Part shown: piece after piece, positions 8,425-20,312 of the stretch | Layout of the letters: the number at the start of each line of letters is the position of its first letter | How positions within the stretch are numbered: position 1 is the stretch's first letter | NCBI GenBank assembly: GCA_029936395.1 | Contig: JAPYSW010000008.1 | Coordinates: 1 to 41,184, forward strand | Origin: Candidatus Poseidoniia archaeon | Lineage (GTDB): Archaea; Thermoplasmatota; Poseidoniia; MGIII; CG-Epi1 | Reading direction: 5' to 3' | Length of the DNA stretch: 41,184 nucleotides | Made by a program: the position numbers and the translations under genes | The notes under the pieces: model-generated | Told to the model about the DNA's origin: nothing | Databases searched by the model: none | The model's input: the letters and a program-made list of their open reading frames with translations, nothing else

Positions 8425-8681
8425 AATTTTCTCAAATGTCGCCTTGGAGGCTTAGATACTTTGACATCTCCCTTCATAATTGTATCTGAATCTAACTTTT
8501 TACTTTCTCCTGAAAATATATAATATGAATTGACTTTACTAAATTCTAAACCTTCTTGTTGACAAGAATTCTTCATTCGAGATCTAAAAGTGTCCTTCTT
8601 AGAATGGTTTTTCCCTTTAGGAGTAATACCTTCCCACAAATTGTTAAACTGTAAATAATTTACACTTTTTTTATCAATCAT
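8421..8681 (-). CDS. small basic protein of unknown function coupled to nuoN
   Basis: 86 aa; start overlaps the nuoN stop (ATGA). No family recognised by eye. Confidence 0.55.
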   Translation of the reverse strand: MIDKKSVNYLQFNNLWEGITPKGKNHSKKDTFRSRMKNSCQQEGLEFSKVNSYYIFSGESKKLDSDTIMKGDVKVSKPPRRHLRKF

Positions 8682-10171
8682 CCCATTAAGGCTATTGCAG
8701 CCTCCTTACATATTTCAAAGAGAGATTGCCAATATAATGGGAAAATAATTCCCAATAATAATATAGTCATTAATGAAATATATCTTATCGAACTAGGAAA
8801 TACAACCTCTTTAGCTTCGACGGGCTCATAAAGATACATGTATCTTATTATTTTGAGATAATAGTACAATGATAATGCTGAATTAAGAACACCTGCAATT
8901 ACCAAAGCTATAATCCAAGTTTCGCCAGATAAACCTGCTTGAAGTGTACCATAAAATAATAGGAATTTACTAATGAAACCTGCAAACGGAGGAATACCTA
9001 CCAATGAAAGAAGACAAACAGTCATAGAAAGAGCTAGCAACTGTGAACGCTGAGCTAAACCTTTGTAAGAGTCTAAGCTATAACCTAAACCAACGGCACC
9101 CAATCCAGCCACTACCACAAATGCTCCACCTTTCATAAATGCATGAATCAAAGTATGAGCAATAGCACCAGACATTGCATCATCCGTCATTGCTGGAATT
9201 GCAATCATAATATATCCTGCTTGAGCAATAGAAGAATAAGCTAACATACGACCTATATCTTCCTGTGATATTGCTGCCAAATTACCAAGAGTCATAGAAG
9301 CGAGTGCAACAAGTCCCAAAACTAATTTCCACTCTTCAGATACTGACTCAAGAGTAAACGAAAATACCCTAAATATTGCAATGAATCCCATTGCTTTACT
9401 TGCTGCCGCCAATAATGTTGTTACGGGTGTTGGAGCACCTTGATAAACATCAGGAGCCCAAGCATGGAAAGGAACTACTGCTATCTTGAAACCTAAACCA
9501 GCAAGTATGAATAAACTTGATATGAAAATAACCTCATTGAAATTACCCGTTATTACACCTTGAGATAATCCATCAATAAATGCATGAACTCCATCAAATG
9601 TTAATGATCCTGTAACTGCATAAAGTAAAGATATTCCATAAAGTGTCAAAGCTGAAGAAAAAGCACCAATCAATAAATATTTTGCACCAGCTTCAGCAGA
9701 TTTGTCATCTTGTTTTCTAAAAGCCACTAAAGCATAACTGCTAAACGCTGAAATCTCAATACCCAAAAAAAGAGTTAAAAAATCATTAGCTGAAGCTACG
9801 ATTAACATCCCTAAAGTACTTGACAATAAAAGTGTGTAGTACTCAGCTTGATGTGGTTCATCTTCATCAAAATACGAACTGCTTATCAATGAAACTGTAA
9901 GAGCTACAAGAACAAAAATAATTTTAAATATTTGAGAGAAAATATCTATCTTAAAATGTCCATACAACAAAAACATTGAAACTTCTCTATCCATAGATAG
10001 AACCTCTGGATTAAACCATGAAACAATAAGGAATAACAGAATACTAGTAAGTGTCAAATTAGAGCATAAAGCGAAAGATTTCTTAGTTTCTGTTAACATG
10101 TACAAACCAGGTATAGTCATTATGCTAGCGACAAGTATTATTTCTGGCAAAAACAAATTAGATGGTTCCAT
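8678..10171 (-). CDS. nuoN: complex I subunit N
   Basis: 497 aa proton_antipo_M protein. FKIAVVPFHAWAPDVYQGAPTPVTTLLAAASKAMG; operon position. Confidence 0.95.
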   Translation of the reverse strand: MEPSNLFLPEIILVASIMTIPGLYMLTETKKSFALCSNLTLTSILLFLIVSWFNPEVLSMDREVSMFLLYGHFKIDIFSQIFKIIFVLVALTVSLISSSYFDEDEPHQAEYYTLLLSSTLGMLIVASANDFLTLFLGIEISAFSSYALVAFRKQDDKSAEAGAKYLLIGAFSSALTLYGISLLYAVTGSLTFDGVHAFIDGLSQGVITGNFNEVIFISSLFILAGLGFKIAVVPFHAWAPDVYQGAPTPVTTLLAAASKAMGFIAIFRVFSFTLESVSEEWKLVLGLVALASMTLGNLAAISQEDIGRMLAYSSIAQAGYIMIAIPAMTDDAMSGAIAHTLIHAFMKGGAFVVVAGLGAVGLGYSLDSYKGLAQRSQLLALSMTVCLLSLVGIPPFAGFISKFLLFYGTLQAGLSGETWIIALVIAGVLNSALSLYYYLKIIRYMYLYEPVEAKEVVFPSSIRYISLMTILLLGIIFPLYWQSLFEICKEAAIALMG

Positions 10172-12081
10172 TAGAGTACTCCCATAAATATCAAAATATC
10201 ATAACAAGCTGTATTAATTGGATCCATCAAATAATGTGGAAAAATACCGAATATTGCTGCGATAATTATTATTGTAAACATAGGATATAATTCATACCAT
10301 GGAGCTTCATGAACCTTACTCATTTCTATTTCTTCACTATCCGTTCCAAAAATTGCCCTTTGAAGTGCCCAAAGATGATAACCGGCAGTTATAACCATAC
10401 CAAATATAGGCAATAATAACCAATAACCATGAGATTGAAAGAAAGCTATGAAAACAGCCAATTCAGCTACAAAAACAGCCATTCCAGGCAAACCAAGGCT
10501 ACCCATAAAAATCACAACAAAAATACCGGTAGTTTTTGGTTGGTGCCTTGCTAATCCCCCGAGTTTAGGTATTTCTCTTGTTCCCACTTGATGAAGTAAA
10601 ACCCCAGCAATCATAAACATTGCAGGACTTAGAATACCATGAGCAAACATCATGAAAACAGCTCCAGCTAAACCTAACTCAGTCATTGTTGCAACACCAA
10701 GTAATGCAACGCCCATATGGGAAACACTGGAATAAGCTACTAACTTCTTCAAATCAGTTTGTCCTAAACTCAAAACTGCGCCGTATAAGATAGATATAAT
10801 GGCTAAAGCCACCATAACTGGAACAAAATAGACTGCACCTAGCGGTAATACGGGTAATGCAGCTCTTATTAATCCATAAAGCCCCATCTTAAGCATAACA
10901 CCGGCCAATAAGATAGAACCAGCAGTTGGGGCTTGAACATGCGCATCTGGCAACCAAGTATGCCATGGGAATGAAGGTATCTTAACTGCGAAACCAATGA
11001 ATAAAGCAGCAAAAACCCAAATTTGGAAATTTTCTGAAAAAGCCTCATTATTTATGGATAATTCTCTACTACTATTTGCAATATCAATCATAGAAAAAGA
11101 ATTTGCCCCAGACTCAAAGTATAAGGCCATGAAACCTACCAACATTATTACTGAAGCTGTAAAAGTGTATATGAAAAATTTAATAGAAGCATATCTCCGA
11201 TCATCTCCACCCCATATTGCAATTAAGAAAAACATAGGTATAAGAACAATTTCCCAGAAGATATAAAATACAAAATAATCAAGTGTAACAAACACGCCAT
11301 AAAGTGCAGTTTGCATAATTAAAAGCAAACTAAAGAAAAGTCCAGGTCTCTCTTTTTCTTCCCAAGCAAAAATAACTGTTAATGGTCCTATTATTCCAGT
11401 TAATAAAATAAGTGGAGAACTTAAGCCATCAACACCAAGTAACACTGAAATGCCAAGATTCGGTGCCCATTCATATTCCTCCATCAAACTATAACCTGAT
11501 TTAGAACCGGTCTTCATAAAAACAATTAAAGATATAATTAATGTAAACAAAGTAGTGAACAAAGCAATCAATCTAGGGGCATTAGGTGTATTCCCGAAAC
11601 TAATAGACCAAAGGGCCCCGATAATAGGAAATACTAAAAGATAAGATAGCCAAGGAAAATCACTAAACTCCATCGATATTTCAGGAAGTGGTAATGAACC
11701 TGAACCAACTATTATTGAGCCACGCATATTCATCGTAGCGTGAGGTTCACAAACATAATACAAAGTCCCATCCTGTGCTGTAAAATCAGCAGGAAGCGGC
11801 CAATTACCGCCAACTTGAGGATTACCTGAATAGAAACCAGATTCATAATTATTAGATTCAGAATCTGAGACTTGTGCAACATTATGAGATCCATTGCCCC
11901 ACACAAATAAGACATTATCACCAACTTCAACTTCCAAAACATTTGGATCAAAAAAATAGGAAGTGAAATCATCTGATTGAGTAACTGTTACAGTATGGTT
12001 TTCAGCTTCAACATTACCTGAAAACAGAACCAACATAGCAAATAACATAAAAAACCCTAAAAACTTATTCAAATTGACCAC
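10171..12081 (-). CDS. nuoM: cupredoxin (plastocyanin-like)-NuoM fusion
   Basis: Signal peptide plus GSHNV...YYVCEPHATMNMRGSIIV type-1 copper motif (aa ~27-126), then NuoM (IPSFPWHTWLPDAHVQAPTAGSILLAGVMLKMGLYG). Confidence 0.93.
   Translation of the reverse strand: MVNLNKFLGFFMLFAMLVLFSGNVEAENHTVTVTQSDDFTSYFFDPNVLEVEVGDNVLFVWGNGSHNVAQVSDSESNNYESGFYSGNPQVGGNWPLPADFTAQDGTLYYVCEPHATMNMRGSIIVGSGSLPLPEISMEFSDFPWLSYLLVFPIIGALWSISFGNTPNAPRLIALFTTLFTLIISLIVFMKTGSKSGYSLMEEYEWAPNLGISVLLGVDGLSSPLILLTGIIGPLTVIFAWEEKERPGLFFSLLLIMQTALYGVFVTLDYFVFYIFWEIVLIPMFFLIAIWGGDDRRYASIKFFIYTFTASVIMLVGFMALYFESGANSFSMIDIANSSRELSINNEAFSENFQIWVFAALFIGFAVKIPSFPWHTWLPDAHVQAPTAGSILLAGVMLKMGLYGLIRAALPVLPLGAVYFVPVMVALAIISILYGAVLSLGQTDLKKLVAYSSVSHMGVALLGVATMTELGLAGAVFMMFAHGILSPAMFMIAGVLLHQVGTREIPKLGGLARHQPKTTGIFVVIFMGSLGLPGMAVFVAELAVFIAFFQSHGYWLLLPIFGMVITAGYHLWALQRAIFGTDSEEIEMSKVHEAPWYELYPMFTIIIIAAIFGIFPHYLMDPINTACYDILIFMGVL
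11704..12003 (-). other. type-1 blue-copper (plastocyanin/halocyanin-like) domain at the N-terminus of NuoM
   Basis: HTVTVTQSDDFTSYFFDPNVLEVEVGDNVLFVWGNGSHNV...TLYYVCEPHATMNMRGSIIV. Ligands His, Cys, His, Met in canonical spacing C-x2-H-x4-M. Confidence 0.88.
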
Positions 12082-14249
12082 CCCATAATTGGCATGACTA
12101 TTCGAGTAATCAGAACTATAGCCCCCAGCCCACCTACGGTAAGAGAAGCATAATGTCCAGTAAAACCTGAATTTAACTTTCTAACTTCATTGCTAAAGAA
12201 CTGTGTAATGCTTGCAGTTGCATTTACTAATCCATCAACTATATTCCTATCAAACCAATCACATGCTTGCGCAAAAGTATCCCAAGTCCTCATTCCAAAC
12301 CAATCGAATAATTTAGCCATATACATTCTATTGGACAAGAAAATATGAAGAGGTCCAAAGACAATATTATCTGAAATAAAAGATGTCGAAAGTATAGATT
12401 TACCATCGCTTCCACGTTTGTAAAATAAATATCCTAGAGTAACACCACTAAGACCAACAATTACTGATAAATAAGTTAAAGAGGAGGAAAGAATATGATC
12501 AATAATTTCCCACTGTATTGGCCCTTCTGTACTTTCATGATGACCAAAATATATTCTTGAACCAAAACCTTCACCAATAAATAATAAAAATCCTGAGAAA
12601 ACAGCCATAAAAGCTAAGAGCATAAGAGGTATTGTCATTACTAATGGAGCCTCATGAGCATGAATCTTGACTTCTTTCTTAGATAATTCCCAGTTACCAG
12701 TGCCTTCATGGTCTTTAGATGGTTTCATTTCACTAATTTTCCGAGTATCAGGACCACTAAAAGTCATCATCCAAAGCCTTGTCATGTAAAAGGCAGTCAT
12801 AGCAGCAGTCAGTAAAGCAAGCCACCACAAGATTCCAAAAATACCTTCAACTTCACCATTACGATGAACTGCTTCTAATATTTCATCCTTAGACCAGAAA
12901 CCTGAAAAGAAAGGAACGCCGGCAATAGACAGTACCCCAAGACCCATAGTCAAAGAAGTAATTGGCATAGATTTCCTCAAACCACCCATCTCTCTCATAT
13001 CCTGAGTATGTACTGAATGTATAACTGCGCCAGCACCAAGGAAAAGTAAAGCCTTGAAAAAAGCATGATTCATTAAATGGAATAACCCCGCAGTATATCC
13101 TTGAACGTGATGAATCTCTAAACCAGCTTCAGCTGCATGCCAAAACGCCCATGCACCAGTTCCAAGTGCTAAAAACATATAACCTAACTGAGAAATTGTG
13201 GAATAAGCTAATACTCTCTTAATATCATTCATAACCATTGCCATGCTTGCAGCAATGAAAGCAGTTACACCACCAGTAACTGCAATATAAATTGCAGTAT
13301 CGGGACTATGAACAATCAGTGGATAAGCTCTAGCAACTAAGAAAACACCTGCTTTTACCATAGTTGCAGCATGTATCAAGGCTGAAACTGTGGTTGGCCC
13401 CTCCATAGCATCTGGAAGCCAAACATGTAAGGGAAACTGAGCAGATTTACCTACAGCTCCACCGAACAAACAAAGTGTTGCCCACTTTACCTCAGTTGCA
13501 TTAGCAGCTAATAATTCAGGATCACTAAATAATTCCGAATATCTAAGCGTACCAAAAGTATTGAAAAGAATAACTAAACCTAAAAGTAAGAATACATCTC
13601 CAACACGTGTTACCAGAAAAGCCTTTTTTGCAGCTGATGCTGCAGACGGTTTTTCATACCAGAATCCAATCAATAAATAAGAACAAACTCCAACCAATTC
13701 CCAGAAAATAAACAACAATAAAAATGAATTCGCAATAACCAAACCAAGCATTACACCAACAAATAAACATATCTCTCCAAAGTATCTAACTTGTCTATCT
13801 CCTTCTTCATGCATATAGCTTATAGAAAATAATACAACTAAATATGAAACAAAACCAACTACTAAGAGTAAAATTGCAGCCAAACTATCGATATATGTAC
13901 CAAACTCAAATGAATATGTTTCACCTCCAAACCAAGTTCTAGTAGACTCAATAAATCCACCATGTAAAGAATCTTGGAAAAGAACCTCATAAACAACAGC
14001 CATAGAAAATACTGAAGAAAGTCCAACACCAATTAAAGCAAACAAACCTCCTCTTCTTGGATCATACATTCCAAATAAGATAATCAAGGCAAATGAAATT
14101 ATAGGAAATACAGGTATCATCCAAGCTACACTTACAAAATCTGCAGATAATTGGTTTGTGAAAACATAAAGTAATAATAAAGCAAAAAGAATACTTCCTA
14201 AAACTACTGCAATAATATCAGAATCTGACTTACTATCCTTACTACTAAT
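12069..14249 (-). CDS. nuoL: complex I subunit L, probably starting at non-canonical ATT 14249 (the ATG at 14120 is the track call)
   Basis: NuoL motifs FPLHVWLPDAMEGPTTVSALIHAATMVKAGVFL. The open frame continues upstream of the called ATG to the nuoK stop and encodes ISSKDSKSDSDIIAVVLGSILFALLLLYVFTNQLSADFVSVAWM. An SD-like GAGGTGG precedes the ATT. Confidence 0.85.
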   Translation of the reverse strand: MSSKDSKSDSDIIAVVLGSILFALLLLYVFTNQLSADFVSVAWMIPVFPIISFALIILFGMYDPRRGGLFALIGVGLSSVFSMAVVYEVLFQDSLHGGFIESTRTWFGGETYSFEFGTYIDSLAAILLLVVGFVSYLVVLFSISYMHEEGDRQVRYFGEICLFVGVMLGLVIANSFLLLFIFWELVGVCSYLLIGFWYEKPSAASAAKKAFLVTRVGDVFLLLGLVILFNTFGTLRYSELFSDPELLAANATEVKWATLCLFGGAVGKSAQFPLHVWLPDAMEGPTTVSALIHAATMVKAGVFLVARAYPLIVHSPDTAIYIAVTGGVTAFIAASMAMVMNDIKRVLAYSTISQLGYMFLALGTGAWAFWHAAEAGLEIHHVQGYTAGLFHLMNHAFFKALLFLGAGAVIHSVHTQDMREMGGLRKSMPITSLTMGLGVLSIAGVPFFSGFWSKDEILEAVHRNGEVEGIFGILWWLALLTAAMTAFYMTRLWMMTFSGPDTRKISEMKPSKDHEGTGNWELSKKEVKIHAHEAPLVMTIPLMLLAFMAVFSGFLLFIGEGFGSRIYFGHHESTEGPIQWEIIDHILSSSLTYLSVIVGLSGVTLGYLFYKRGSDGKSILSTSFISDNIVFGPLHIFLSNRMYMAKLFDWFGMRTWDTFAQACDWFDRNIVDGLVNATASITQFFSNEVRKLNSGFTGHYASLTVGGLGAIVLITRIVMPIMGWSI

Positions 14250-14250
14250 A

Positions 14251-14553
14251 TTACCACCTCAACCTATTGAGTAAATCTAACTCAATCGTGTCTCTTTGCT
14301 TAAACAAACTCAATAATATAGCTAAACCAATAGCCACCTCAGCTGCTGCAATTGTCGTTACAAAAAGAACAACTATCTGACCAGATAAAACATTGTAAAA
14401 AGTTGAAAAGGCTACAAAATTTATGTTTGCGGCAGTTAACATTATTTCTACAGACATTAAAACAACAATCGCATTCTTATTACGAATAACACCATAAGCT
14501 CCAATTAATAGCAATATTGAAGAAAAAACTACAAAATTAATAGGATCAATCAT
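14251..14553 (-). CDS. nuoK: complex I subunit K
   Basis: 100 aa. IGAYGVIRNKNAIVVLMSVEIMLTAANINFVAFS is classic NuoK. Confidence 0.95.
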   Translation of the reverse strand: MIDPINFVVFSSILLLIGAYGVIRNKNAIVVLMSVEIMLTAANINFVAFSTFYNVLSGQIVVLFVTTIAAAEVAIGLAILLSLFKQRDTIELDLLNRLRW

Positions 14554-15358
14554 CTTTCTCCTCCCTAGCTAAGAAAACACCAGCTTGTAATGCAATAACC
14601 ATTAGAACACCTAGTAAAATAAATGGGACTTCCCAATCATTAAATAACTCAAAAGCCAAAAATTTAGTAGTGTCTATATTTACAGATCTAACTTCAGAAT
14701 ATTCTGAAGTAAATCCTTCTGAATCAACTGCATAAACCGTCCACGAATAAGTTTCTCCTCTAATGAACTCAGAATAAGTATATTTTGTATCCTCTAAATT
14801 TTCTACTTGAAGAACTAAAGAGAATGAATCTAGAGAAACTGCGTCATATTTATCGGTACTTATTTGCTCATTTAAATTTATTATCAAAGTATATGTTACT
14901 GTTACTATGGGCCAATTTACTAAAAGTTTAGAAGCCGTATCAGTAGTGTGTACCTCTGTAAACAATAAAGGCATTTCCTCTATTCCATCTCCTAATGAGC
15001 TTCCAGACATTCCAATATAATAAACATTAGAAGTGTAGTTACCTGAAGGCAATCTTGGTGTTTGAGATTCATTAGCAGTAATGTTCACTTCATACATCAA
15101 TTCTCCATCACTGTTCAATACAATGTGCCTATAACCTACTGAAACCGGAACCCATTCAAATTCAACAGAATCGCTGTAATGATAATAGCCATTCTCAGGG
15201 AAAATTGGAGAGGGAGCGCATCCATAGTTACAACTGTTTGAATTTTCAGATTCAATTGCTAAATTATTCCAAGGAGCTAAGGCAAGAGAAACTACCACGT
15301 AGAATGAAAACGTAATTACTAAAGCATCTCTAACCCATATTATACTTCTACTAGACAT
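14546..15358 (-). CDS. nuoJ: C-terminal half of split NuoJ carrying a large extracytoplasmic insertion
   Basis: Two TM segments (ALVITFSFYVVVSLALAPW and WEVPFILLGVLMVIALQAGVFLAREEKDD, like the NuoJ C-terminus) separated by ~200 polar residues with repeated beta-sandwich-like strands. ATG 15358 preceded by GGAGGTG. Confidence 0.75.
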   Translation of the reverse strand: MSSRSIIWVRDALVITFSFYVVVSLALAPWNNLAIESENSNSCNYGCAPSPIFPENGYYHYSDSVEFEWVPVSVGYRHIVLNSDGELMYEVNITANESQTPRLPSGNYTSNVYYIGMSGSSLGDGIEEMPLLFTEVHTTDTASKLLVNWPIVTVTYTLIINLNEQISTDKYDAVSLDSFSLVLQVENLEDTKYTYSEFIRGETYSWTVYAVDSEGFTSEYSEVRSVNIDTTKFLAFELFNDWEVPFILLGVLMVIALQAGVFLAREEKDD

Positions 15359-15614
15359 CTTCACCTCCTTTTAATGTTCTCTTAGTTAACATAATTCCAA
15401 AAATAATCACTACCGATATAGCACCAACATAAACGAGTACTTGTATAACTGCTAAAAATTCAGCATCAGCAATAATAAACAAACATGCAGTCAAAAGAAA
15501 AACTGTAGCCAACCATACAACCGAGTGAACGATATCATTACCATTAACAACTGCCCAAGCCGAAGCAAGAATTAATGACGCTAAAAACCAAAAAATCAAC
15601 AAAACTAAATCCAA
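15351..15614 (-). CDS. nuoJ: N-terminal half of split NuoJ
   Basis: 87 aa with three TM helices. VIQVLVYVGAISVVIIFGIMLTKR is the NuoJ TM3 signature. Confidence 0.88.
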   Translation of the reverse strand: MDLVLLIFWFLASLILASAWAVVNGNDIVHSVVWLATVFLLTACLFIIADAEFLAVIQVLVYVGAISVVIIFGIMLTKRTLKGGEDV

Positions 15615-15617
15615 AAA

Positions 15618-16394
15618 TTAAGCCTCCTGCGAAGTTTCGTCTGGAATTAACCCACTGGAACTTGAGTTGCTTATTGGTTCCATGTGCAGACAATCAGCAG
15701 GACAGACCTTGACACAAGTTGAACACCCGATACAAATAGTGTAATCGAAATATGGATTCTCGACATTACGAGTCTTTCCACTTTTCATTGTTTTATTCTG
15801 AGGCCCTAAATCCATGATGATACAATTTGTTGGACAATTATCGACACACTTACTGCATCCAATACAAGGGTCTGCATCAAGAACTGGAGATTCCATCATG
15901 TAATTTGTGAGAGGTAATTGAGGTAAGTCCTCTAATTCTACTTTCATAGATCTTGCAGGATAAATTAAACCTTCACGGTTAGTATCTGCTAACTCATAGA
16001 AATCAGTCATAGTCATGGCTCCAGTAGGGCAATAATCTTCACAGAAACCACAAAACATACAATGTCCAAAATTTATAGCAGGTCTTTCAGCTTTACTCTT
16101 TCTCTTTGCTAAATGAGAACCATACCAAGCTCTATCTTTTTCTTGTTCTGATAAATCTTCAGGTTTCATCTTAAGACACTTATTAGGACATACTTCACCA
16201 CAAATACCACAACCAATACATAAATCCCAAATTACTGCATTCATACCTCTATAGGTTGGAGGCGGATCTCTTCTTTCAAGAGGATACATCACCGTTGTAG
16301 GTTTACCAAACGTTGATTTGAAAAACTGTTTTAGCGTAACCTTCATTGGATTCACAAAAATATCCATTAAACCGGGTTCTCTTTCGTTACTCAT
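15618..16394 (-). CDS. nuoI: complex I subunit I with four [4Fe-4S] cluster motifs
   Basis: CIGCGICGEVCP, CMFCGFCEDYCP, CIGCSKCVDNCP, CIGCSTCVKVCP within 258 aa. Confidence 0.93.
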   Translation of the reverse strand: MSNEREPGLMDIFVNPMKVTLKQFFKSTFGKPTTVMYPLERRDPPPTYRGMNAVIWDLCIGCGICGEVCPNKCLKMKPEDLSEQEKDRAWYGSHLAKRKSKAERPAINFGHCMFCGFCEDYCPTGAMTMTDFYELADTNREGLIYPARSMKVELEDLPQLPLTNYMMESPVLDADPCIGCSKCVDNCPTNCIIMDLGPQNKTMKSGKTRNVENPYFDYTICIGCSTCVKVCPADCLHMEPISNSSSSGLIPDETSQEA

Positions 16395-16395
16395 A

Positions 16396-17628
16396 TTAGA
16401 ATACCTCCGGTAATGTAATTATATTTGAAAAATAAGGATATATCTCTACCATCAATATTACAATCAAAATATTAATTAATGATAAAGGTAATAACTTTTT
16501 CCAACCAAGCTCAAGAATTTGATCTGTGCGTATTCTTGGAACTGACCATCGAATAAATATCCAAAATATTATAATCAAATATACTTTTATCAAAAACCAA
16601 ATCTCAGGTGGAACTGGCCAAGGACCGGCCCAACCCCCTAAAAACAAGATTGTAGCTACTGCAGCACCCGCAAAACCACGTATATATTCAGCTGCAAGGA
16701 ATAACATATATCTAATTCCGCTATATTCCGTAGTCCAGCCTTCTACTAATTCAGCTTCAGCTTCAGGTAAATCAAATGGAACTCTCTCTACTTCAGCAAG
16801 AATACAAATCATAAAAACAATAAAGCCTATAAATTGAGGAATAATATTCCACATAGGTAGACCAAACAACCAAGTGCCTTCCTGCTGTTGTTCTACAATA
16901 GTGACAGGATCAAAAGAACCAGCTAGAAGAAAGACTCCAGCCATACTCAATAAAAGCGGAATCTCATAAGCCATTAATTGAGCTGCCGACCTCATTCCTC
17001 CAATCATTGAATATTTATTATTAGATGCCCAACCGGAGGTTAATACTCCAATAGGCGCTATAGAAAAAGCAGCCATAATTACCATTAAGCCTGCAGGAGC
17101 TGAAGAAGCTGCAAATCTATCAGATAACGGAAATAACACTAATAAAAACACTGAAGATGAAATAAATATTATAGGACCCATTGTAAACAAAAAACGATCG
17201 GCTTTAGTAGGTACAATTAATTCCTTTGTGATTGCTTTAATCCCATCAACCAGATTTTGTATAATTCCAATTCCACTATAATTATCCTTAAATTTCCAAG
17301 TAGGAGCTTCTCCCGCTAAATCTTCTTTTAATTCTCTTAATGATCTTAAAGATAACATTGGCCCTCTACGATCTTGTATACGGGCTGCAATTTTTCTTTC
17401 CAAATGAATAACTAAAATTAGATTAGTCATACCAACCATAAAAGCTATATTCACAGCATATGTCCAAGCTAAAGTATCTAGCCCACCATCCGTCCCTAAC
17501 CAATCTGCGACAGAACCCGCAGGGTTACTAAATGGCGGAAATAAACCTGCTTGAAAATTAAAAATAGGTATTAGAAGATATTCGGCAGTCCATTCCGCCA
17601 TTGACCGACACGCAGTAAATAAACTCAC
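16396..17628 (-). CDS. nuoH: complex I subunit H
   Basis: ERKIAARIQDRRGP, GWASNNKYSMIGGMRSAAQLMAYEIPL, ERVPFDLPEAEAELVEGWTTEYSGIRYMLF. Confidence 0.96.
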   Translation of the reverse strand: MSLFTACRSMAEWTAEYLLIPIFNFQAGLFPPFSNPAGSVADWLGTDGGLDTLAWTYAVNIAFMVGMTNLILVIHLERKIAARIQDRRGPMLSLRSLRELKEDLAGEAPTWKFKDNYSGIGIIQNLVDGIKAITKELIVPTKADRFLFTMGPIIFISSSVFLLVLFPLSDRFAASSAPAGLMVIMAAFSIAPIGVLTSGWASNNKYSMIGGMRSAAQLMAYEIPLLLSMAGVFLLAGSFDPVTIVEQQQEGTWLFGLPMWNIIPQFIGFIVFMICILAEVERVPFDLPEAEAELVEGWTTEYSGIRYMLFLAAEYIRGFAGAAVATILFLGGWAGPWPVPPEIWFLIKVYLIIIFWIFIRWSVPRIRTDQILELGWKKLLPLSLINILIVILMVEIYPYFSNIITLPEVF

Positions 17629-18725
17629 TTATCAGTCTCCCCTATACAAATATCAATACTACCCATTATTGCCGGAATATCTGCTAATTTGTAGCCTTTA
17701 AGATAATGTGGACAAGCTGACATTGTAGTGAACATAGGGCTCTTGATTTTCCACCTATAAGGCCTATCTGAACCATCTCCAACTACATACATCATTGCTT
17801 CACCTCTTGAATCTTCAGTTCTACGGAAAGCCTCACCATGAGCTCTAACTGGAATCCGAGAAGCCAATGTAGCGCCTGCTGGCATTTTCTTAAAACAATC
17901 ACGAATAATACGAACTGATTCCTTCATTTCATCTATTCGAACCATATAACGGCTGAAACAATCACTATAACCAGGACCTGCCTCTCTAGTCGAAATATCC
18001 CAATCAATTTCCTCATATATTTCATAAGTATCATGCTTTCTCAAATCAAACTTAGTGCCGCAACCTCTCAAGTTGGGCCCAGTAATTCCAAAATTCTTTG
18101 CTTGTTCAGCTGTAAATTTACCAACGTCATCTGTACGCATTCTGAATATTTTTGAATTTTCAAAGAGATCCGAATACTCATCAAGTCTTTGCTCAAATAA
18201 CTTAAGTATTCTTTCGGTTTTTTCTTCAAAACCATTAGGTAAGTCTCTCTTAACTCCACCTATTCTAATAAAATTATAAAGTAAACGACTGCCACTTGGT
18301 AGTTCTAATAAATTAAGGAAAAGCTCTCTGTCTCTCCAGAAATAAAGTGCACCCGTAATATGCCCCAAATCGGGCATGTAAGCTCCAGCCCACATTAGAT
18401 GTGACGCTAGTCTCTGCAATTCTAACATTATTGTGCGAATATATTGTGCACGGACTGGAACTTCAACTTCCATTAATTCTTCAACTGTATGAGTGTAACA
18501 ATGTGTCCAAGTAGTTGAACTTGCATAACATAGTCTATCAGTTAATGTGGTATTCATAAAGTATTTTCTTCGTTCCCCCATCTTCTCAACTGAGCGATGA
18601 AGATAACCTAATTCTGGATCGGCATCAACGATTGTTTCACCATCCACTTTTACTTTAAGCGTCCAAAGACCATGAGTCATAGGATGTTGAGGACCCATAC
18701 TAATCCACATTTCAGCCATTACCAC
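17625..18725 (-). CDS. nuoD: complex I subunit D (49 kDa)
   Basis: [62 protein letters not shown]. Confidence 0.96.
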
Positions 18726-19192
18726 TCCTCCTCGTGTATTTCATACACATAATCTTTTCTGAGTGGATGGCCTGCAAACCCTTCTGGTAAAAGAACCCTA
18801 CGCAAATCAGGATGCCCAATAAAGTAAATTCCCATTAAATCAAAGGCCTCTCGCTCATGCCAATCAGCTCCAAACCATATATTTGCAATTGAATCTACAC
18901 TAGGTGCCTCTCTCTTGAGATATATGTGAGCTTCTAACATGACTGCACAATTACTATCATCAACAACAATTGATTGGTTCATGCAAGAAAAATGATAGAC
19001 TAATTCAAAGTCTGGTTGATTATCTATAGCACTAATCAATGAACAATGTTCAAATTCGGATTTTATACTAACAAAAAAATCTAGAGACTCCTCTTTGGTC
19101 AAATCTAATTTAACGGTATTCTTTCTTATCTTAGAGATATTAGAAACTCCTTTAGAAGATGACAGTTGTTGCATAAATTCATCAATGTTCAT
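18719..19192 (-). CDS. nuoC: complex I subunit C (30 kDa)
   Basis: [40 protein letters not shown]. Confidence 0.94.
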
Positions 19193-19193
19193 A

Positions 19194-19835
19194 TTAACGC
19201 CTCAGGAACATACCTGGCTCTTTGGCCCTAATCTTCTTCTGTAAAGTTAAAAATCCATGCATCAAAGCCTCTGGGCGGACTGGACAACCTGGAATGTAAA
19301 CATCAACTGGCATAAATGTATCGGCTCCAGCAACAACTGAATAAGAATCCCAATAAGGACCACCTGAAATTGCACATTCACCCATTGCAATAACCCATTT
19401 TGGTTCTGGCATTTGTTCATACAACGTCTTTAGTTTTGGCCTGAGTTTTTCACAAACAGGACCATTTACTATCAAAACATCACACTGACGCGGTGATGAA
19501 CGATAAACCAAACCAAGCCTGTCAATATCATGATCCGGAGCTGAAGCTTGTCCCATTTCAATTGCACAACACATAATTCCAAAATGTAAAGGATGAGGAG
19601 ATAATCGTTGGGCAAAATTAAAAATTGGCCTAGTAATCCTATCTACAACCTCTCGCATGCCTGTAAATTCAGCTACATTATATACTGAATTATCAATCCA
19701 TTCCAAAAGCTGATCTGATCTCAAAGCCAACCAATCACCGGCAGGAGGATCTTCCATTATCTTATCAGAATCTGTTGTTTTAGAACCAACACCTCTTCTA
19801 AGATTTGGATTACCTCTTACTTTTTTTGAGCTCAT
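19194..19835 (-). CDS. nuoB: complex I subunit B (N2 cluster)
   Basis: [52 protein letters not shown] 19835 (MSSKKVRGN) overlaps the nuoA stop; the track start 19952 is an over-extension. Confidence 0.95.
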
Positions 19836-20191
19836 ATCCAGATGACATCCTCCTTCTTGAAAGCATACCACAACCCCAATAGAGTTAAAAGTAAAAATAA
19901 CATCATTACTATCTTTGCAGCAATTGCCAACTGAAGATATACTTGTACCCAAAGAATCAAAAATACCACCACTAAATCAAATACTAAAAATAAAATTGCA
20001 AACATGTAATATTGAAAGTGAAATTGAATGTGAGCTTCCCCCATAGGAACTTCTCCACACTCATAAGTAGAATTTTTGAGAGCATTATCATTATGTGGAC
20101 GGAAGAACCTTCCGATAAAAAATGTCATTATAGGAAATGATAGCGCAATAAGCGCAAAAATCCCTATAGGGATGTACTCGTGTCCCAGCAC
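19832..20191 (-). CDS. nuoA: complex I subunit A (start probably GTG 20191; track start 20269)
   Basis: YIPIGIFALIALSFPIMTFFIGRFFRP...NSTYECGEVPMGEAHIQFHFQYYMFAILFLVFDLVVVFL. A TATA-like tttaatag lies ~22 nt upstream of GTG 20191, consistent with a leaderless start. Confidence 0.9.
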   Translation of the reverse strand: MLGHEYIPIGIFALIALSFPIMTFFIGRFFRPHNDNALKNSTYECGEVPMGEAHIQFHFQYYMFAILFLVFDLVVVFLILWVQVYLQLAIAAKIVMMLFLLLTLLGLWYAFKKEDVIWI

Positions 20192-20312
20192 GAATACCCT
20201 TTTGTCTAACCCTATTAAAAGAGTTCGGATAATGTCCAAAATATATCTAAAAAAAATATGCCAAACCATAACTACACCTATCTTTCTGCTAAAGTCCTGA
20301 AAAAGGTGAATA

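Follow-up and report, generated by a model that had tools for sequence, protein, structure and literature searches.

A conserved tandem fibronectin-III-like insertion in the split NuoJ subunit of complex I, distributed together with a NuoM cupredoxin domain in a marine archaeal lineage

In the window analyzed here (the whole 41,184-nucleotide stretch of contig JAPYSW010000008.1 of a Candidatus Poseidoniia archaeon), the C-terminal half of the complex I subunit NuoJ is encoded by a gene of its own, nuoJ2, whose product (further referred to as J2) almost certainly carries a tandem pair of fibronectin-III-like (Fn3) domains in its outward TM4–TM5 loop. For an archaeon the split of NuoJ is nothing unusual; the insertion elaborates complex I in a lineage-specific way. 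What is new is the conserved Fn3 pair inserted in this core subunit, a trait linked by its distribution to a cupredoxin domain of NuoM. The best overall explanation, which we hold tentatively, combines the Fn3-bearing J2 with docking that involves the NuoM cupredoxin. Judging from the genes, J2 is a putative member of the assembled complex.

The features are listed in Table 1. The preliminary description of this DNA had NuoJ split over two overlapping ORFs, and both were found on the minus strand, with an overlap of 8 nt. The product of the first, J1, is matched by the Pfam domain Oxidored_q3 (PF00499) over positions 1–62 (E 4.4e-21) and is hydrophobic over its whole length, as expected with three transmembrane segments. 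The start of J2 is most likely ATG 15358 rather than GTG 15364, because a good Shine-Dalgarno sequence, GGAGGTGA, lies just upstream of the former and the homologues start at the same position. The hydropathy profile of J2 has two hydrophobic segments, at approximately residues 5–31 and 237–267, which flank a polar stretch of about 200 aa. The J2 ORF and its two hydrophobic ends, as described earlier, were thereby retained, with the reading refined to 270 aa from ATG 15358 and with TM4 placed by position and hydropathy.

Table 1. Features of the nuo locus in the window (coordinates are those of the window).
Feature	Coordinates	Strand	Basis
Complete 11-subunit nuo operon, order A-B-C-D-H-I-J1-J2-K-L-M-N, without EFG	8678..20269	-	
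NuoM with N-terminal plastocyanin-type cupredoxin, same outer face	10171..12081	-	PF00127 E 3.9e-8, PF00361
NuoJ2, NuoJ C-terminal half with inserted ectodomain	14546..15358	-	270 aa, ATG start at 15358; conserved in 19 family genomes
TM5, J2 residues 237-264, canonical NuoJ C-terminus	14567..14650	-	Profile-profile match to sister-family short J2
Second Fn3-like domain, J2 residues 140-229	14672..14941	-	1fnf profile match, Pfam fn3, Foldseek tandem FnIII
First Fn3/Ig-like domain, J2 residues 52-139	14942..15205	-	AF2 strands, core pLDDT 80-95; profile resemblance to domain 2
Conserved N-glycosylation sequon N92-X-T/S, domain 1	15077..15085	-	In 14/15 aligned J2 sequences
TM4, J2 residues 5-28	15275..15346	-	Hydropathy; position ahead of conserved Trp
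NuoJ1, N-terminal half of NuoJ (TM1-TM3)	15351..15614	-	87 aa, TTG start; PF00499, NCBIfam NuoJ models, hydropathy
Shine-Dalgarno sequence of J2, GGAGGTGA, within the 3' end of J1	15361..15368	-	Sequence

The assignment of J2 to NuoJ depends on whether its termini align to that subunit. In profile–profile comparison (hhalign) the last 41 residues, which contain TM5, match the short J2 proteins (about 89 aa) of sister families with 41% identity and E 2.5e-9, and these short proteins in turn match TM4–TM5 of the NuoJ and FpoJ models. PF00499 positions 103–145 are recognized in the window J2 with E 0.03 and in 9 of the 15 family members, the best at E 2e-4. At the other end a hydrophobic segment is correctly placed for TM4; the profile alignment stops short of it and the similarity of the TM4 sequence alone is not significant, so that TM4 is placed from its hydropathy and location. 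The gene lies between nuoI and nuoK as a single copy in the genome. A search with the short-J2 profile found no NuoJ C-terminal half besides J2 in the window genome and five family relatives, leaving J2 as the sole candidate for this half. That J2 is an artefact, either of chimeric assembly or of taking some other gene for the second half of nuoJ, has a negligible probability: the same architecture is seen in 19 genomes on independent contigs with intact frames, and TM5 is homologous. The orthologues in the 18 further family genomes, which share this architecture, likewise show that the ORF has not arisen by chance or through misassembly.

The size of the insertion follows from comparison with sister genomes, where the TM4–TM5 loop, delimited by a Trp and a Thr-Thr pair, has approximately 10–20 residues. 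In J2 the corresponding W and TT are separated by about 200 residues; therefore about 190 aa have been inserted, in good agreement with the ~200-aa replacement of this loop proposed before. Its side of the membrane follows from the known topology of complex I, as in the earlier placement on the outer face: the TM3–TM4 loop of ND6/NuoJ sits between the peripheral and membrane arms (PMC10212512), i.e., on the cytoplasmic side, and hence the TM4–TM5 loop is extracytoplasmic. The split of NuoJ falls in the TM3–TM4 loop.

Several lines of evidence identify the inserted segment as the two Fn3/Ig-type beta-sandwich repeats suspected from its appearance. The J2 family profile, compared with known structures, matches fibronectin (1fnf) by its second half with E 2.4e-4. 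Pfam fn3 is matched by 13 of the 15 members at E<=0.1 (best E 1.2e-4), the window member alone listing no fn3. Domain 1 has no direct family match, and its profile resembles that of domain 2 with probability 84 and E 7.9e-6, a likeness that suggests a duplication. AlphaFold was run with three sequences, those of the window J2 and two relatives; the ectodomain is predicted as all-beta with two sandwiches at moderate, not high, confidence (pLDDT 74, pTM 0.64; pLDDT 61 for full J2). Foldseek searches with the folded model retrieved almost exclusively tandem FnIII pairs as top matches, with probabilities up to 1.0 and low TM-scores of 0.2–0.3, which are probably due to the differing orientation of the two domains and the moderate model confidence. 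As a rule, FnIII domains in tandem act as rigid spacers in binding. Large Thermoplasmatota proteins, among them a 1,206-aa ORF of the window genome, contain Fn3-like stretches that resemble the second domain, and these are a plausible source of the insertion. A C-x3-C pair ahead of domain 1 is limited to one genus.

The ectodomain is clearly under purifying selection, as estimated from codon substitutions, and is held less tightly than the membrane core. Between the window and a relative with 81% identity, dN of the ectodomain is 0.146 and dS is 1.05 (dN/dS about 0.14), while dN equals 0.011 for TM5 and 0.028 for J1. Both domains have stayed intact in all three genera, even where identity falls to about 35%, and in small genomes of ~1 Mb. 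Most of the invariant residues (Trp, Tyr, Leu, Gly and Asp) are of the types that form an Fn3 core; H60 and R102 are invariant as well. The surface loops differ in length and sequence, and indels occur inside domain 2. Among the 15 aligned sequences, 14 have the N-X-T/S sequon at N92. Summed over the related sequences, sequons number 45 against a shuffled expectation of 31 and are mostly not significant singly, so that the glycosylation argument relies on the conserved N92 site. The window genome encodes an STT3/AglB homologue; the sequon and this homologue are in keeping with the predicted outward location of the ectodomain.

The distribution of the insertion was established by whole-genome searches (a scan of contigs gave two relatives only). 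It was found in 19 of the 21 genomes of the window's family, representing three genera; the two genomes without a match are 54% and 74% complete. A further 193 genomes of the same class match the J2 profile through TM5 only, every listed match starting at profile position 203 at least. Their J2 frames typically have 85–124 aa; longer frames were examined in one genus, where an Fn3 insertion was considered and an EF-hand extension was found instead. This J2 (L065:2600-3175; sister family f2, genus g11) bears the extension at its C-terminus (PF13405, E 2.7e-8), so that NuoJ2 is elaborated there in another way and on the cytoplasmic side. Among 127 Thermoplasmatota genomes sampled across the phylum, no NuoJ outside the family had the insertion, the non-family matches being TM5 alone or Fn3 stretches of other, mostly large proteins. 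The ectodomain, presumed unusual at the outset, is thus confined to the window's family among the Poseidoniia and Thermoplasmatota sampled. The kinship labels jump from the same family to the same class, so that no other family of this order seems to have been sampled; the ectodomain would have become fixed in the ancestor of a single marine lineage of order rank, most likely Marine Group III (MGIII), which is united with MGII in one class (PMC6461757).

The ligand pattern in the cupredoxin of NuoM, C-x2-H-x4-M, is that of blue copper proteins. A 300-aa NuoM query spanned both the cupredoxin and the membrane parts in 17 of 17 testable family genomes, while in 37 genomes of two sister families it matched the membrane part only (cupredoxin in 0/37). 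Judging from these searches, the J2 ectodomain and the NuoM cupredoxin are specific to the same lineage, and their identical distribution strengthens the link that had been drawn from their position on the same face. NuoF (PF01512) is absent from the window genome and four related ones. In this complex without NuoEFG, NuoI (15618-16394, minus strand) has four 4Fe-4S cluster motifs (four stretches of Pfam Fer4) where two are usual, which may serve electron entry from ferredoxin.

The lineage also encodes cytochrome b with a Rieske-like neighbor, a CuA-type COX2, COX1 and several cupredoxins. In a sister genus, a cupredoxin closely similar to that of NuoM (54% identity) lies ~5 kb from COX1. The cytochrome b operon (L113:2484-6047) contains a divergent Rieske-like protein (CPH...CPCH) that Pfam does not recognize, and is adjoined by genes with HdrB-like CCG and 4Fe-4S domains. 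A Rieske match in the window genome was rejected, as it is a ring-hydroxylating oxygenase. Outward domains were seen on several respiratory proteins of the lineage: COX1 (L094:1140-3404) has an N-terminal extension of ~250 aa holding a CxCH motif, and a similar, Reeler-like membrane protein (PF02014; L113:6402-7097) adjoins the cytochrome b operon. Cytochrome c has been reported missing from every Thermoplasmatota genome examined, and blue copper proteins adjoin complex IV in three other orders of this phylum (PMC9287336). In haloarchaea halocyanin is fused to an oxidase subunit, which is an archaeal precedent for tethering (PMC8305020).

Given this setting, the J2 ectodomain might act as a docking platform on the outer face, a role that we regard as possible, though short of probable. 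The Fn3 pair would form a rigid, glycosylated stalk and, together with the NuoM copper domain, would keep complex I close to two partners, the cytochrome b/Rieske complex and the CuA oxidase. The tethered copper carrier of NuoM would pass electrons between these two partners in a respirasome-like assembly, the Fn3 pair itself neither carrying electrons nor pumping protons. The identical distribution of the two outward domains argues for docking, as do the conserved sequon with STT3, the purifying selection, the presence in 19/21 family genomes and the tandem FnIII fold, along with the TM5 homology, the uniqueness of J2 and the ordinary short J2 of sister families. The composition of the chain, the lack of cytochrome c with blue copper proteins beside complex IV elsewhere in the phylum, and the halocyanin–oxidase precedent are also in its favor. 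On the other hand, the co-occurrence comes from one lineage and may reflect a single pair of events rather than functional dependence; variable surface loops, with invariants that look mostly like fold core, give no hint of a conserved binding site; NuoJ/K and NuoM are separated by NuoN, so that contact with the cupredoxin is not assured; the model confidence is moderate; and the partner of the Fn3 pair is putative. A bolder version, which seems rather unlikely, would make complex I a built-in hub in which the NuoM blue-copper carrier and the NuoJ Fn3 scaffold organize an obligate archaeal respirasome and copper carries electrons over the outer face of complex I, between complexes III and IV.

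The main rival to docking is a structural clamp: the Fn3 pair would lie against the outer side of its own complex, hold the J2 TM4–TM5 hairpin in place and limit the movement of TM4 for the sake of assembly or stability. The split does make J2 a free two-helix hairpin, the conserved ectodomain residues lie mainly in the fold core, and when mitochondrial complex I is deactive, TM4 of its ND6 is known to relocate completely (PMC10212512). However, sister families with equally split NuoJ have a short loop and no such clamp; therefore splitting does not require one, which weakens this explanation, and the strict co-occurrence with the NuoM cupredoxin is left unexplained by it. Overall, we consider a clamp unlikely, if worth keeping in mind. 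Less probable still is a neutral insertion, in which a surface protein supplied an Fn3 pair that entered a loop able to tolerate it and was kept without a special role. The peripheral position of the loop would allow this, and the ectodomain evolves faster than TM5 and has indels within domain 2, but the retention of both domains over three genera in small genomes, at the dN/dS given above, speaks against it. An equally improbable, or slightly less probable, role is that of an envelope anchor binding surface glycans or a surface-layer protein and thus positioning complex I relative to the envelope. The outward location, the sequon and the similar Fn3 stretches in large Thermoplasmatota proteins agree with an anchor, but no carbohydrate-binding signature was found in J2, and its weak matches to Fn3/Ig domains of sugar enzymes are generic.

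The Fn3 insertion, taken with the NuoM cupredoxin, provides a concrete and testable case for respiratory complexes being coupled via domains of complex I itself; in this uncultivated marine archaeal lineage such coupling would need no separate accessory subunits. The joint restriction of the Fn3 modules and the copper domain suggests that the respiratory machines may be physically tied together. The J2 insertion is in addition a sequence marker of the lineage. Few bioenergetic proteins are as conserved as the core membrane subunits of complex I, and we are not aware of any core subunit that bears a large, folded and outward insertion like that of J2; a literature search for a comparable outward insertion in a core complex I subunit found none.

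Comparison with known systems delimits what is particular to J2. The halocyanin–CbaD oxidase fusion of haloarchaea resembles the NuoM cupredoxin in that a copper carrier is tethered by gene fusion, but there the carrier is joined to a terminal oxidase rather than to complex I, and an Fn3 scaffold has not been reported (PMC8305020). The split NuoJ1/NuoJ2 (FpoJ) of the archaeal 11-subunit complex I/Fpo, including that of other Poseidoniia, shares with the window genes the split in the TM3–TM4 loop, the overlap, the gene order, the lack of NuoEFG and the TM5 motif, whereas its TM4–TM5 loop has ~10–20 residues in place of ~190 aa of tandem Fn3. In bacterial and mitochondrial NuoJ/Nqo10/ND6, TM1–3 and TM5 correspond to J1 and to TM5 of J2, respectively; unlike J1 and J2, these proteins are one unbroken five-helix chain with no ectodomain. 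Mitochondrial complex I also bears extra mass on its membrane arm, in the form of supernumerary outer-face subunits, some of which are found at supercomplex contacts. These subunits are separate, unrelated proteins, whereas the J2 ectodomain is an insertion in a core subunit.
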